Assembly: GCF_001295845.1 (NCBI RefSeq)
Contig: NZ_LJIC01000099.1
Coordinates: 1 to 64,000, forward strand
Direction of reading: 5' to 3'
Length of the DNA: 64,000 bases
Origin: Rhodopseudomonas sp. AAP120
GTDB taxonomy: Bacteria; Pseudomonadota; Alphaproteobacteria; Rhizobiales; Xanthobacteraceae
Position numbers and translations under genes: made by a program. Within the stretch, counting starts at the first letter, position 1, and the number at the start of each line of letters is the position of its first letter. Shown in pieces: positions 92-6,352 of this stretch. The notes under the pieces are model-generated. The model worked only from the letters and a program-made list of their open reading frames with translations. It was not told where the DNA came from and did no database searches.

Positions 92-925
92 GTGACTGCA
101 ACGGACAGCCTTGCTTCCCAAACCTTCGCCGCCAATCGCGCGGTGGGTGAAGTCGCGGTCGCGGTCCGCGTGGTCGATGGCGTGACCAGGCGCGGCGCCG
201 TGCACGAGGCCGGCTCGCTCCGCGTCCGCTTTCCCTCGCCGGAGCAACAGGGGCTGTCGGCGGTGTTGGTCAATACCGCAGGTGGCGTCGCCGGCGGCGA
301 CCGCTTCAGCGTCGCCCTCGATGTCCGCGAAGGCGCGCGGCTGACGCTGACCACCGCTGCCGCCGAAAAGGTCTATCGCTCGCATGGGCCCGCGGCCGAG
401 CTCGACATCGCGCTGAAGGTCGCGGCCGGCGGGCACCTGGCGTGGCTGCCGCAGGAGACCATCCTGTTCGACCAGGCCCGCGCCGAACGCCGGATCGAGA
501 TCAACCTCGCTACCGGCGCTTCGCTGCTGCTGTGCGAATCCGTGGTCTTCGGCCGTTCGGCGATGGGCGAGACGATGCGGACCGGCCGCTTCGTCGACCG
601 CTGGCGGCTGCGGGTCGGCGGCAAGCTGGTGTTCGCCGAAACGGTCCGGCTCGACGGCGACATCGCCGCGCTGCTGGCGCGGCCGGCGGTTGCCAAAGGT
701 GGCGTCGCGGTTGCCACCGCGCTGATCGTGCCGGGTGATGCGGCCTTGGTGGAGCGGCTGCGCGAAGACGCCGAGGCATTCGGCGCCGAGGTCGGCATCA
801 CGGCCTGGAATGGAATTGCAATGGCGCGGTTCTGCGCTCAAGATGCGGCGAAGCTGCGCGCCGACATGGTGGCGGTGCTGCGCCGCGCCGCCGGCCGCGC
901 ACTGCCGCGACTGTGGTTCAGCTGA
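92..925 (+). CDS. ureD: Urease accessory protein UreD
   Basis: UreD (UreH) is the scaffold that binds apo-urease and, with UreF and UreG, delivers nickel and CO2 to the active site in the cytoplasm. The 277-residue product shows the family hallmarks NTAGGVAGGD near residue 65, the LTTAAAEKVYRS segment, and WLPQETILFD in the middle. The open frame extends upstream to a TTG at 20, but that extension encodes the repeat hairpin peptide, so I chose the in-frame GTG at 92; length then matches the family. It opens the cluster, 58 bp before ureA. Any upstream urea transporter genes would lie outside the window. Confidence 0.93.
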   Translation: MTATDSLASQTFAANRAVGEVAVAVRVVDGVTRRGAVHEAGSLRVRFPSPEQQGLSAVLVNTAGGVAGGDRFSVALDVREGARLTLTTAAAEKVYRSHGPAAELDIALKVAAGGHLAWLPQETILFDQARAERRIEINLATGASLLLCESVVFGRSAMGETMRTGRFVDRWRLRVGGKLVFAETVRLDGDIAALLARPAVAKGGVAVATALIVPGDAALVERLREDAEAFGAEVGITAWNGIAMARFCAQDAAKLRADMVAVLRRAAGRALPRLWFS

Positions 926-983: not shown

Positions 984-1286
984 ATGAATCTCTCCCCCCG
1001 CGAAAAGGACAAGCTGCTGGTCTCGATGGCCGCGATGGTGGCGCGCCGAAGGCTGGAGCGCGGCGTCAAGCTCAACCACCCCGAGGCGATCGCGCTAATC
1101 ACCGACTTCATCGTCGAAGGCGCCCGCGACGGCCGCAGCGTCGCCGAGCTGATGAAGGCCGGCGCCGAAGTCATCACCCGCGCCCAGTGCATGGACGGCA
1201 TCGCCGAGATGATCCACGACATCCAGGTCGAAGCCACATTCCCCGACGGCACCAAGCTCGTCACCGTGCACCAGCCGATTAGGTAA
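984..1286 (+). CDS. ureA: Urease gamma subunit
   Basis: Smallest structural subunit of urease, which hydrolyses urea to ammonia and carbamate. The 100-residue product is full length and begins with the standard [11 protein letters not shown] sequence. It carries [21 protein letters not shown] and ends with the usual [15 protein letters not shown]. Bacterial-type three-subunit urease is assumed because separate beta and alpha genes follow. A palindromic repeat lies between this gene and ureB. Confidence 0.98.
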
Positions 1287-1421: not shown

Positions 1422-1727
1422 ATGATCCCCGGTGAACTCTTCATCGAAGACGGCGAGATCGAGCTCAATGCCGGGCGCGGCACGGTGACGCTGACGGTGG
1501 CCAACAGTGGCGACCGGCCGATCCAGGTCGGCTCGCACTATCATTTTTTCGAAACCAATCCGGCGCTGAAATTCGAGCGCGACAAGGCCCGGGGCATGCG
1601 GCTCGACATCGCGGCCGGCACTGCCGTGCGCTTCGAGCCAGGTCAGAGCCGCGAGGTCCAACTCGTCGCGCTCGCCGGCAGTCGCACCATCTACGGCTTC
1701 CGCGGCGACGTCATGGGCAAGCTGTAG
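1422..1727 (+). CDS. ureB: Urease beta subunit
   Basis: Second structural subunit of urease. The 101-residue protein begins [16 protein letters not shown] and has the hallmark [14 protein letters not shown] followed by [17 protein letters not shown]. It ends in the usual [14 protein letters not shown] start with GGAGA nearby upstream. It lies between ureA and a small HD-domain gene rather than directly before ureC. Confidence 0.98.
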
Positions 1728-1754: not shown

Positions 1755-2291
1755 ATGACCGATCTCGTGCTGGTGTCGCGAGCCGCCGATTTCGCTGCGC
1801 GCTGCCATGCCGGGCAGCGGCGCAAGGGCTCGTCGCGCGAGCCCTATCTCAATCACCTCGCCGAAGTCGCCGAGATGTTGGCGTTCGCCACCGACGGTGG
1901 CGACGCCGCGTTGGTCGCGGCGGGATGGCTGCACGACAGCATCGAGGACTCGGATACAAGCCGCGACGATCTGGTCGATCGCTTCAACGAAGACGTCGCG
2001 TCGCTCGTCGTCGAATGCACCGACGACATGTCGCTGCCGCGCGCGCAGCGCAAGCGCCATCAGGTCGAACACGCACCGCATTTGACGCCGCGCGCCCGCA
2101 TGATCAAGCTCGCCGACAAGATCAGCAATGTCCGTTCGCTGATCTTCTCGCCGCCGGACGAATGGGAGCGCGAGCGGCTGGTCGATTATCTCGATTGGGC
2201 CATTGACGTCGCCGCCGGCTGCCGCGGCGTCAGCGAGCGGCTCGATCGTCTCTTCAATGAAACCGCCGCACGCGCGAGGGCTGTGTTGTGA
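1755..2291 (+). CDS. HD-domain hydrolase, MESH1-like small (p)ppGpp hydrolase
   Basis: 178-residue single-domain protein of the RelA/SpoT hydrolase-like HD superfamily. The metal and catalytic residues sit at almost exactly the spacing of metazoan MESH1 (about 179 residues): His34 in [10 protein letters not shown], His60-Asp61 followed by Glu64-Asp65 in WLHDSIED, and Asp121 in KLADKISNV. There is no synthetase or TGS/ACT domain, so a stand-alone hydrolase of (p)ppGpp or a related nucleotide is expected. Substrate is not proven: MESH1 relatives can also act on NADPH. Its stop overlaps the GTG start of ureC by four bases, implying co-translation with urease. I do not know this gene as a standard urease-operon member. 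Confidence 0.82.
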
Positions 2292-4000
2292 GCACCAGGA
2301 TTGCACGTTCCGTCTATGCCGACATGTTCGGCCCGACCACCGGCGACCGCATTCGGCTTGCCGATACCGATCTGATCATCGAGGTCGAGAAGGATCTCAC
2401 CACCTATGGCGAGGAGGTGAAGTTCGGCGGCGGCAAGGTGATCCGAGACGGCATGGGACAGTCGCAAGTGACCAACGCTGACGGCGCCGCCGACACGGTG
2501 ATCACCAACGCGCTGATCGTCGATCACTGGGGCATCGTCAAAGCCGACGTCGCCATCACCGCCGGGGTCATCACCGCGATCGGCAAGGCTGGCAATCCGG
2601 ATATCCAGCCGAATGTCGATATCATCATCGGCCCCGGCACCGACGTGATCGCCGGCGAGGGCAAGATCCTCACCGCCGGCGGCTTCGACAGCCATATCCA
2701 TTTCATCTGCCCGCAACAGATCGAGCACGCGCTGATGAGCGGCGTCACCACGATGCTGGGCGGCGGAACCGGCCCGTCGCACGGCACGTTTGCGACGACC
2801 TGTACGCCGGGGCCGTGGCACATTGGCCGGATGATTCAGTCGTTCGATGCCTTCCCGGTCAATCTCGGCATCTCCGGCAAGGGCAACGCCGCGCTGCCGG
2901 GGCCGCTGAAGGAAATGATCGAAGGCGGGGCCTGCGCGCTGAAGCTGCACGAGGACTGGGGCACGACGCCAGCGGCGATCGACAACTGCCTCACCGTCGC
3001 GGACGAATACGACATCCAGGTGATGATCCACACCGACACGCTCAACGAGTCGGGTTTCGTCGAAGACACTGTGAAGGCCTTCAAGGGCCGTACCATTCAC
3101 GCTTTCCACACCGAAGGCGCCGGCGGCGGCCACGCGCCGGATATCATCAAGGTCGCGGGCCTCGAAAACGTGCTGCCGTCGTCGACCAATCCGACGCGGC
3201 CGTTCACCCGCAATACGATCGACGAGCATCTCGACATGCTGATGGTGTGCCACCATCTCGATCCGTCGATTGCCGAGGATCTGGCGTTCGCCGAGAGCCG
3301 CATCCGCAAGGAGACGATCGCGGCTGAAGACATCCTGCACGACCTCGGCGCGCTGTCGATGATGTCGTCGGATAGTCAGGCGATGGGCCGCCTCGGCGAG
3401 GTGATCATCCGCACCTGGCAGACCGCCGACAAGATGAAGAAGCAGCGCGGGGCACTGTCGCAGGACTCGTCGCGCAACGACAATTTCCGCGTCAAGCGCT
3501 ACATCGCCAAGTACACGATCAACCCGGCGATCGCCCATGGCGTCTCGAAGCTGATCGGCTCGGTCGAGAAGGGGAAGATGGCCGACCTGGTGCTGTGGTC
3601 GCCGGCGTTCTTCGGCGTCAAGCCCGATTGCATCATCAAGGGCGGCAGCATCGTCGCGGCGCCGATGGGCGATCCCAACGCCTCGATCCCGACACCGCAG
3701 CCGGTGCACTACCAGCCGATGTTCGGCGCCTTCGGCAAGGCGCTGACCGCGTCGTCGGTGGTGTTCACCTCGCAGGCCGCAGCCGCCGGCAATCTCGCCC
3801 GCGACCTCGGTATCGCCAAGAAGCTGGTTCCGATCAGCAACGTCCGCGGCGGCATCTCCAAAAAGAGCATGATCCACAACGACGCCACGCCGAAGCTCGA
3901 CGTCGATCCTGAAACCTACGAGGTCCGCGCCGACGGCGAACTGTTGACCTGCGCGCCGGCAGAGGTGCTGCCCTTGGCGCAAAGATACTTCATGTTTTGA
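2288..4000 (+). CDS. ureC: Urease alpha subunit (catalytic)
   Basis: Catalytic subunit carrying the di-nickel centre. All ligands can be seen: His136 and His138 in GFDSHIHF, carbamylated Lys219 in [11 protein letters not shown], His248 in [11 protein letters not shown], His274 in [12 protein letters not shown], Asp362 in [10 protein letters not shown]. The mobile-flap Cys321-His322 of MVCHHLDP is also present. Length 570 is normal. It uses a GTG start overlapping the stop of the preceding HD gene (GTGA). There is no sign of truncation; with subunits A and B it should form an active enzyme once nickel is inserted. Confidence 0.98.
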
Positions 4001-4227: not shown

Positions 4228-4527
4228 GTGATCTATGTCGTCGCCACACTCACCGTGAAGCCCGAGATGCGGGCCGAGCTGATCGCTGCCGCCAAGGAAT
4301 GCATTGCCGGCACCCGACAAGAGCCCGGCAATGTCGCCTACGATCTGCACGAGAGCGTCACCGATCCGACCCAGATGGTGTTCGTCGAGCAGTGGGAGAA
4401 CGCCGAGGCGCTCGGCCCGCACAGCAAGACCGAGCACTTCAAGGCGTTCGGCCGCGCCGCGGCGAAGTGCCTGGCGGCGCCTCCGAAGATCGAAATCATC
4501 ACGCCTGCCAAGGTCGACGTGAAGTAA
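4228..4527 (+). CDS. ABM-domain protein (YgiN-like monooxygenase family), copy 1
   Basis: 99-residue protein of the antibiotic-biosynthesis-monooxygenase fold, a dimeric alpha/beta barrel. It begins MIYVVATLTVKPE and has the conserved His in YDLHESV, the EQW strand (FVEQWEN) and the HSKTEHFK segment. A GGAGGA Shine-Dalgarno precedes the GTG start. Family members oxidise quinols or other aromatics without cofactors, or degrade haem, but the actual substrate cannot be read from the sequence. A close paralog follows 38 bp downstream, and both lie between ureC and ureE. Confidence 0.85.
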   Translation: MIYVVATLTVKPEMRAELIAAAKECIAGTRQEPGNVAYDLHESVTDPTQMVFVEQWENAEALGPHSKTEHFKAFGRAAAKCLAAPPKIEIITPAKVDVK

Positions 4528-4565
4528 GCGGCTTCGCGGACGCTAACGAGAAGGGACAATCCCCC

Positions 4566-4865
4566 ATGATCTACGTCGTTGCCACCACGCAGGTGAAGCC
4601 GGAGGCGCGTGAGGCCTTCATCGCCGGCGCCAAGGCGTGCATCGCCGAGACCCGCAAGGAGAAGGGCTGCATCTCCTACGAGAACCACATCTCGATCAAC
4701 GATCCGAACACCTTCGTGGTGGTCGAGCGCTGGGAGAGCCGCGAGGATCTCAACGCGCATGCCCGCGCGCCTCACATGAAGGTGTGGCGCGAGCTGTCGA
4801 CGCCGTTGAAGGCGTCGCCGACCGTGATCGAGATCATCAGCGACGGCAAGGTCGAGACGTTCTGA
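4566..4865 (+). CDS. ABM-domain protein (YgiN-like monooxygenase family), copy 2
   Basis: Also 99 residues and aligning end to end without gaps with the preceding gene; by eye a little under half the residues are identical (shared MIYVVAT, VKPE, CIA-TR, VE-WE, IEII). The conserved His is in YENHISI and the aromatic strand is VVVERWES. The frame is open further upstream across copy 1, but the ATG at 4566 matches the start of copy 1 and follows an AGAAGGGA ribosome-binding site. It looks like a local tandem duplication that has diverged. No link with urease activation is known to me. Confidence 0.85.
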   Translation: MIYVVATTQVKPEAREAFIAGAKACIAETRKEKGCISYENHISINDPNTFVVVERWESREDLNAHARAPHMKVWRELSTPLKASPTVIEIISDGKVETF

Positions 4866-4986: not shown

Positions 4987-5637
4987 ATGATCCGAGCCAG
5001 CAAAGTCTACGGACAGTATCATTTCAAGGAGCCGGCGGCCGACAGCGTCGTGCTGGCGTTCGACGATCGGCATCGGCGGCGGATGGCGATGACCGGGACG
5101 CGCGGCCTCGAGTTCCTGCTCGATCTAGAACACGCCGTTGCGCTGCGCGGCGGCGACGCGCTGGTGCTCGACGATGGCCGGCTGATCGAAGTGGTTGCCG
5201 CGCCGGAGCCGCTGCTGGAGATCCGCGGTCGCGATCCGTTGCATCTGGTGCGACTGGCCTGGCATCTCGGCAACCGGCATCTGCCGACCCAGATCATGGC
5301 CAAGGCGCTCCGCATCCGCCGCGATCACGTCATCGCCGATATGGTGAAGGGGCTTGGTGGCAAGGTCCTTGAGATCGATGCGCCATTCGATCCGGAAGGC
5401 GGTGCCTATGCGCCGGCGCACGACAGCGGCGCGCACAGCCATCACGATCACGGCCATCATGGCCACGATCACCATGACCACCACAATCACGCTCATCACG
5501 GGCATGATGATCACGGTCACGCGCATCAGCATCCTGGCCATGATCATTCCCATGGTCATGATCACCACGTGCACGATGAGCACTGCGGTCACGATCATGG
5601 CCACGCCCACGGCCATTCCCACAAGCATGAGCACTGA
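4987..5637 (+). CDS. ureE: Urease accessory nickel metallochaperone UreE with long His-rich tail
   Basis: UreE binds Ni2+ and hands it to the UreDFG complex. Residues 1-140 form the normal two-domain UreE body, with conserved [17 protein letters not shown] and [12 protein letters not shown] (the central metal-binding histidine is in LAWHLGNRH). Residues 145-216 are an unusually long tail in which 36 of 72 residues are His, mostly in HDH, HGH and HAH patterns with one Cys (EHCGHDHGH). Such tails store or buffer nickel. ATG start just after CCC; the 3' end overlaps ureF by 11 bp. Confidence 0.96.
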
Positions 5638-6352
5638 GCCGGCCGCCTCGCCGAGCGAACCGCTGTCGGCGCAGCAGGGCGCTGCGCTGTATCGGCTGAT
5701 GACCTGGCTGTCGCCTTCGTTTCCAGTCGGGGCGTTCTCGTATTCCAGCGGCCTGGAATGGGCGGTGGAAGCGGGCGACGTCACCGATGCCGCAAGCTTG
5801 CGAGACTGGCTCGCCGCGATGCTCGAATACGGCGCCGGCTTTTGCGACGGCGTGTTTCTCGCCCACGCTTATCGCGCCGTCGCTAACAACGACGAGCGGG
5901 GGCTGCGTGAGATCGCCGAACTCTCCGTCGCCTTCGTGGCGTCGGCTGAGCGCCATCTCGAGACCACCACGCAGGGGCGAGCCTTCATCGAGATCGTCCG
6001 CAACGCGTGGGCGAGCGAGGGCCTTGAGCGCGCGGTCACGGCTTGCGACGGTGCGCTGGCTTATCCGGTCGCGGTCGGCCTCATCAGCGCCGTCCACGGC
6101 GTGGCGCTTGCCGCCACGCTGCATGCATTCCTGCACGCGGTGGTGTCGAACTGGATCTCAGCGGGCGCCAGGCTGGTACCGCTCGGTCAGACCGACAGCC
6201 AGCGCGTGCTCGCAGCGCTCGAACCCGTGGTCATCAGCACCGGCGAACGCGCGCTCGTCGCCTCGCTCGACGATCTCGGCAGCGCCACCTTCCGCGCCGA
6301 CCTCGCCGGCCTGCGCCACGAAACGCAGTACACCCGGCTGTTCAGGTCGTAG
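5627..6352 (+). CDS. ureF: Urease accessory protein UreF
   Basis: UreF recruits UreG to the UreD-apourease complex and gates GTP-driven nickel insertion. The 241-residue product has the standard [20 protein letters not shown] near the N-terminus, the [12 protein letters not shown] helix, and the conserved C-terminus [12 protein letters not shown]. The frame is open far upstream through the His-rich ureE tail, but the ATG at 5627 gives the normal UreF length and overlaps ureE by 11 bp. ureG, which usually comes next, is not found: a repeat and a gene on the opposite strand follow. Confidence 0.95.

Follow-up and report, generated by a model that had tools for sequence, protein, structure and literature searches.

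A gene that by sequence and structural model encodes a Mesh1-type small alarmone hydrolase, complete in length and with an intact active site, lies inside the urease operon of Rhodopseudomonas sp. AAP120, near the start of the 64,000-nucleotide stretch of DNA that we analyzed (the window). We lean towards the view that, in the ancestry of several genera of Hyphomicrobiales, an intact Mesh1 gene moved to the urease operon from a thrS-yidD-MESH1-nifU-folE site, that it has mostly been co-inherited since, and that the consequence of the move was regulatory.

The open reading frame carries HD_4, above the cut-off, as its sole Pfam domain, and the only NCBIfam models that it matched were of RelA/SpoT, all of them far below their cut-offs. 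When the protein was compared with the sequences of the PDB, the best phmmer match was human MESH1 (6.3e-39) and Drosophila Mesh1 scored 2.1e-31, while the best other HD-only chain reached 1.4e-15 and the best Rel protein 2.9e-13. An AlphaFold2 model built from a 32-row alignment consisted of a single domain (pLDDT 97.1); Foldseek ranks 1 to 5 were all occupied by MESH1 chains (TM 0.90-0.93), and the TM score to human MESH1 was 0.93. The likeness to metazoan MESH1 (PDB 3nr1, 5vxa, and 9chy) extends over the whole length at 38-39% identity (TM 0.92-0.93) and includes the same HD/ED residues; the window protein differs in being bacterial and encoded within a urease operon. His34, His60-Asp61, Glu64-Asp65, and Asp121 align with human MESH1 without gaps. 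Across the 32-row alignment His34, His60, Asp61, Glu64, and Asp121 are invariant and Asp65 is nearly so. Alignment and model both indicate an ordinary MESH1 fold with no added segments, and the Pfam result and the one-domain model point to a stand-alone HD hydrolase domain without synthetase, TGS, or ACT domains. Values of dN/dS for MESH1 were between 0.09 and 0.31 in the 11 pairs computed. Together with the Pfam and structural results, these values indicate that the frame is a real, selected gene and rule out a chance open frame or an antisense artefact.

An earlier note on this DNA, made from the sequence alone, had described a 178-residue HD protein with catalytic residues at MESH1 spacing, and both Pfam and the alignment to human MESH1 confirm this description. 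Its identification of a MESH1-type hydrolase was likewise right to judge from sequence comparison, as the closest solved relatives are MESH1 and not Rel, where Mesh1-type means MESH1 as opposed to Rel/SpoT and other HD-only chains and the 86-row tree described below holds no named Mesh1-L references. Two other identities were considered. An antidote to a toxic small alarmone synthetase was ruled out, as the neighbors are ureB and ureC and no synthetase adjoins the gene. A urease accessory protein of the UreD/E/F/G type was also rejected, since the protein has no such Pfam domain and its gene is missing from three of the 13 genomes of the genus that have the same ureC type.

The cluster reads ureD, ureA, ureB, MESH1, ureC, two ABM-domain genes, ureE, and ureF, all on the forward strand (Table 1). 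As the earlier note had said, MESH1 sits between ureB and ureC with its stop codon overlapping the ureC start: the TGA at 2289-2291 overlaps the GTG at 2288, so that the junction reads GTGA. The same GTGA overlap was present in all 11 junctions read from Rhodopseudomonas and genus g18. On the upstream side, ureB ends at 1727 and is separated from MESH1 by a 27-nt spacer in the window, whereas in five other junctions read the two genes are joined by TAGATG or TAATG. In the Bradyrhizobium-like genus g25, which on grounds of size and kinship we guess to be Bradyrhizobium, the three MESH1-ureC junctions read have spacers with no stop-start overlap; the spacing in this genus is 26-47 nt, with one case of 559 nt (measured from where the protein match ends and including the stop codon). 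From the stop-start overlap we infer that translation of ureC may be coupled to that of MESH1.

Table 1. Features of the urease cluster in the window (positions in the window; strand as read)
Feature	Position	Strand	Evidence
ureD, start approximate (open frame from 20)	110..925	+	Pfam UreD 8.3e-55
ureA, urease gamma subunit	984..1286	+	Pfam Urease_gamma 2.1e-46
ureB, urease beta subunit	1422..1727	+	Pfam Urease_beta 1e-46
MESH1-type small alarmone hydrolase (putative), 178 aa, ATG start	1755..2291	+	HD_4 8e-20, human MESH1 6.3e-39
GAGG, possible ribosome-binding site for ureC, within the MESH1 frame	2276..2279	+	by eye, inference
ureC, urease alpha subunit, GTG start	2288..4000	+	Pfam Urease_alpha 1e-53, Amidohydro_1 2.7e-75
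ABM-domain monooxygenase-like protein 1	4228..4527	+	Pfam ABM 1.5e-23
ABM-domain monooxygenase-like protein 2	4566..4865	+	Pfam ABM 1.5e-22
ureE, His-rich tail	4987..5637	+	Pfam UreE_N 8.6e-18, UreE_C 1.2e-18
ureF, start approximate	5660..6352	+	Pfam UreF 1.4e-41

The first base of the window is also the first base of its contig (C228), and the promoter of the operon is outside the window. In a relative (R. palustris XCP, locus L036) NCBIfam models identified urtC, urtD, and urtE directly upstream of ureD; the UrtC match was below the cut-off, its front part apparently being cut by the end of the locus. The tandem ABM-domain genes between ureC and ureE (4228-4865) have counterparts in many relatives, where one or both are present. 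Two further urease clusters are found on contig C13 of the same genome (L058 and L059), with UreC proteins 57% and 48% identical to that of the present cluster.

The genome of strain AAP120 encodes other alarmone enzymes. Besides MESH1 itself, the only match to the window protein was a long Rsh (3.7e-15) with an intact HD..ED motif. In nine of the ten genomes searched there was a single RelA_SpoT match, within a frame 745-795 aa long. The exception is the genome of the window, which has an extra RelA_SpoT-domain protein of 385 aa on contig C25 (L275, 1399-2556), the only such protein among the ten. MESH1 is thus an extra hydrolase, present on top of the long Rsh and this other RelA_SpoT-domain protein.

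MESH1 was found in 12 of 16 Rhodopseudomonas genomes, between ureB and ureC in ten of them and beside a ureE homologue in the other two (G001 and G003). The ureC type of the window (at least 93% identity) occurs in 13 genomes of the genus, three of which have no MESH1: ureB abuts ureC in G005 and G015, and in G013 the gap is filled by a MazE-type and PIN-type pair. MazE-type and PIN-type frames are also present between ureB and MESH1 in G007, G010, and G011. G014 has only a partial ureC (61%). The arrangement that the earlier note reported is therefore conserved in ten of the 16 genomes and in other genera, although not in the three that have the same ureC type and no MESH1. The possibility it had raised, of a random insertion absent from close relatives, fails in its strong form, as conservation within the genus and across genera rules out a recent random insertion.

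The two genomes with MESH1 beside ureE bear on what the enzyme needs. Genome searches of G001 and G003 gave no match to UreC, UreB, or UreD. Both genomes keep UreE and a MESH1 with all catalytic residues, and the dN/dS between the two MESH1 genes is 0.09. Purifying selection on MESH1 where UreB, UreC, and UreD are missing indicates a role for MESH1 that is independent of urease. These two genomes have a His-rich ureE next to MESH1 (the pair of genes at loci L039, 5001-6382, and L193).

Beyond the genus we counted MESH1 matches in family, order, and phylum samples; these samples overlap and are uneven, and related genomes were counted one by one. MESH1 was present in 38 of 198 family genomes, and by their flanks 19 of these have it in the urease operon, two beside ureE only, nine at a yidD/nifU/folE site, and eight elsewhere or unassigned. 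In the order sample 43 of 397 genomes matched, one of which (G510) proved to be a long Rsh and 17 of which were urease-linked; in the phylum sample there were matches in 26 of 397. None of the 14 MESH1-bearing genomes from outside the order had a ure gene in the flanks read. We called a copy non-urease when the flanks read contained no ure gene; these flanks covered up to about 8 kb on each side and less at contig ends (for example G128, G063, and G199). The urease-linked rows come from two families. In 27 of them MESH1 is between ureB and ureC (Rhodopseudomonas, g18, the putatively Bradyrhizobium-like g25, and g120 and g157 of another family), and in three it is between ureA and ureB (g11, g30, and g38).

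To place these copies we used an 86-row MESH1 tree, rooted at the midpoint only, with rows longer than 250 aa cut to 200 and with five of the 91 extracted rows left out (L172, which is the long Rsh of G510, the short L142, L127, and L187, and L151). The 30 urease-linked and the two ureE-adjacent rows all fell within one 36-row branch (support 98/97). The remaining four rows of that branch belong to family f26 and have no urease link; among them, G420 and G387 occupy the thrS-yidD site. The unconstrained tree has three changes of the urease label, not one, and forcing the 32 urease-derived rows together was not rejected (p-AU 0.298). Distances between MESH1 proteins correlated with distances between UreC proteins (r 0.70 over 27 genomes), as they did within the family (r 0.76, 23 genomes), and in each case none of 2000 permutations gave a value as high. 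This is as expected if MESH1 and urease traveled together, although shared descent alone would give the same correlation.

Where the gene came from is suggested by the non-urease copies. In tblastn searches, 23 of the 54 non-urease MESH1 rows had at least two of ThrS, YidD, NifU, and FolE nearby. A conserved row thrS-yidD-MESH1-nifU-folE recurs across families of the order (L148, L153, L156, L161-L164, and others), with the YidD, NifU, and FolE markers confirmed by tblastn and Pfam, thrS recognized by eye only, and the neighboring open frames called by a home-made heuristic. A NifU-like scaffold gene was present in all 20 of a set of hand-chosen genomes, and a MESH1 was within 1.5 kb of it only in G420; in G305, G573, and G025 yidD directly adjoins the NifU-like gene. 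In the genome of the window the order FolE, NifU, YidD is kept; the last two genes are about 1.65 kb apart, and MESH1 is missing. Because the site is common in the order and the genome of the window has a version of it that is free of MESH1, the gene has probably moved. Because several families share that site, we infer that the direction was from the thrS-yidD site into the urease operon.

Copy numbers agree with a move. Among the 38 family genomes with MESH1, there was no case of one MESH1 in the urease operon and a second at the thrS-yidD site, which suggests that the gene moved rather than stayed and multiplied. A single match was found in 36 of the 38, which, with the Rsh as the only other match in the genome of the window, speaks against the urease copy being a duplicate of a second MESH1. 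The two exceptions are G081, with two MESH1 pieces at contig ends that both adjoin ure genes, and G140, whose two copies lie at the yidD/nifU/folE site and elsewhere. Outside the order, G826 has two copies.

In most urease-derived copies the active site is intact. The HHDEDD catalytic set is complete in 30 of the 32 urease-derived rows, which rules out a loss of function after the move for these rows. The exceptions are the urease-linked copies of G463 and G581 (L169 and L175; genus g157), in which Lys replaces Asp65. Lys is also found at this position in the non-urease-linked G368 (L160) and G348 (L159), the latter having in addition Gly in place of the Asp of the HD pair. As far as the PDB entry describes it, this is the same change as in a crystallized human D66K protein (9chy). 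Judging from this residue, the Lys65 copies may have little or no activity and could serve as natural controls.

The most serious alternative is that MESH1 is a passenger: the junctions of the operon tolerate inserts, MESH1 borrows the transcription of the operon, and the link to urea and nitrogen has no selective meaning. We doubt this but regard it as a real possibility, as in this family the ureB-ureC junction is a hot spot for insertions. To describe it we took 146 ureC rows of the main type (at least 70% identity, among the matches listed), leaving aside paralogues of lower identity as well as G179 and G019, which are truncated; seven of the 146, among the matches listed, lacked a ureB in the same orientation on their contig. 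In 74 of the 139 family operons that could be paired, among the matches listed, the ureB-ureC gap is longer than 200 nt, and 16 of these gaps hold MESH1. We read 57 gaps, namely 56 of the 58 longer than 200 nt without MESH1 among the matches listed (G077 and G132 were left out) and that of G078, which holds both MESH1 and a patatin. By tblastn, with guest types named from Pfam-identified representatives, 22 gaps contained a GFA-type gene, 16 a MazE/AbrB-type gene, 11 a PIN-type gene (all within those 16), seven DUF559, three patatin, and two DUF6980; 11 contained none of these types. Recognized gene types, seven in all, thus occupied 46 of the 57 gaps. A MazE/AbrB-type and PIN-type pair was seen in the ureB-ureC or ureB-MESH1 gap of L046, L050, L066, L071, L194, and L195. 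The ureA-ureB gap is also used, by HupE/UreJ and DMP19 genes in relatives. In Sinorhizobium, too, other reading frames reportedly interrupt the urease operon between ure structural genes, as Miksch is said to have described in 1994.

With so many unrelated guests at the junction, MESH1 is one among several recurrent guests. Given in addition the three of 13 genomes without it and the genomes that retain it without urease (G001 and G003), its position by itself says little in favor of a nitrogen-alarmone circuit. The variety of guests is the chief reason not to infer function from position, and we give it much weight. On the other hand, the urease-linked copies cluster in one branch and are not scattered over the tree, MESH1 occupies either slot (ureA-ureB or ureB-ureC), and the junctions are tight within the genus; these observations speak for a functional reading. 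Against a moved Mesh1 with a regulatory consequence are the other guests at the junction, the MESH1-free operons of the genus, the urease-less keepers, the Lys65 copies, the four non-urease rows within the branch, the three label changes of the unconstrained tree, and the spacers in place of an overlap at the Bradyrhizobium-like junctions read. Weighing these, we regard a regulatory coupling of MESH1 to urease as plausible. More generally, the hot spot is a caution against inferring function from neighbors in the urease operon of this family.

A second alternative concerns the substrate: the enzyme could be a phosphatase of cofactors or other nucleotides that takes NADPH, CoA, or PAPS and adjusts the pools of reductant or of sulfur and CoA while urea is assimilated. 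Its nearest solved structures include human MESH1 crystallized with NADPH and with PAPS, according to the PDB entries, and human MESH1 has been reported, in the portion of the article available, to be a CoA 3'-phosphatase (PMC13221220). The bacterial enzymes compared here point in different directions. XccSAH of Xanthomonas campestris is, like the window protein, a small alarmone hydrolase, and an orphan without a toxic synthetase. It differs in that its authors place it in a Mesh1-L subgroup with no well-defined nicotinamide-riboside motif, and it is reported to hydrolyze NADPH as well as alarmones, both (p)ppApp and (p)ppGpp, with NADPH used less efficiently (PMC9765508, from the accessible sections). 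SAHMex of Methylobacterium extorquens, which we compare with the window protein by its published description only, is likewise a small alarmone hydrolase, and its alphaproteobacterial host has a long Rsh as well. In the available part of that article its substrate is (p)ppApp, with (p)ppGpp hardly used, and NADPH is seemingly not hydrolyzed by Mesh1, MESH1, or SAHMex under the conditions of that assay (PMC7644958). The lower efficiency of XccSAH on NADPH and the sparing of NADPH in this assay both count against a cofactor phosphatase, which we regard as improbable; this reading overlaps with the others, and our estimates do not sum to one. Because the tested relatives differ, which nucleotide the window enzyme takes cannot be read from its sequence.

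The earlier note had also proposed that the protein modifies urease maturation, and such a factor, binding urease or its chaperones, would fit a gene between structural genes that is retained beside ureE in G001 and G003; it is very hard to credit, as three genomes of the genus have the same urease type without MESH1, only 16 of the 139 family operons, among the matches listed, have it between ureB and ureC, it outlives UreB, UreC, and UreD in G001 and G003, and its fold is that of an ordinary MESH1 without added segments.

We found no report of MESH1 within a urease operon in the open-access papers searched. A Mesh1 in an alphaproteobacterium is itself no surprise, as Rel plus Mesh1 is among the typical combinations of this class in a survey of the RSH superfamily that includes the Mesh1 subgroup (Atkinson 2011, PMC3153485, as far as its text was available). 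The accessible main text of that survey has no occurrence of Rhodopseudomonas or Bradyrhizobium and a single one of "operon", and we did not encounter a urease neighborhood of Mesh1 in it (PMC3153485).

If an intact Mesh1 did move into the urease operon, the consequence could be as follows. By analogy with its relatives the enzyme would cleave the 3'-pyrophosphate from (p)ppGpp or (p)ppApp in a Mn2+-dependent reaction, perhaps also the 2'-phosphate from NADPH, and would not act on urease itself. It can do without urease, and its expression is perhaps tied to urea use; made together with urease, it would lower the alarmone as urea nitrogen becomes available. During nitrogen starvation in Caulobacter, EIIA-Ntr~P is reported to inhibit the SpoT hydrolase, which accounts in part for the rise in (p)ppGpp (PMC4848567, in the portion available). 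As a hydrolase without TGS and ACT domains, the window enzyme should, by analogy, escape this nitrogen-PTS block on SpoT hydrolysis. It could even be speculated that MESH1 is a nitrogen-source-specific alarmone brake immune to the nitrogen-PTS, whose induction by urea use ends the starvation alarmone, and that the Lys65 copies of g157 are alarmone-binding sensors; we consider this extended version unlikely.

To judge from the sources available, the purpose of bacterial Mesh1 enzymes is poorly settled, as the few that have been tested differ in their substrates. A Mesh1 locked in a nutrient-specific operon is a natural experiment in this respect, with relatives that have the gene at the other site, within the urease operon, beside ureE only, with Lys65, or not at all.
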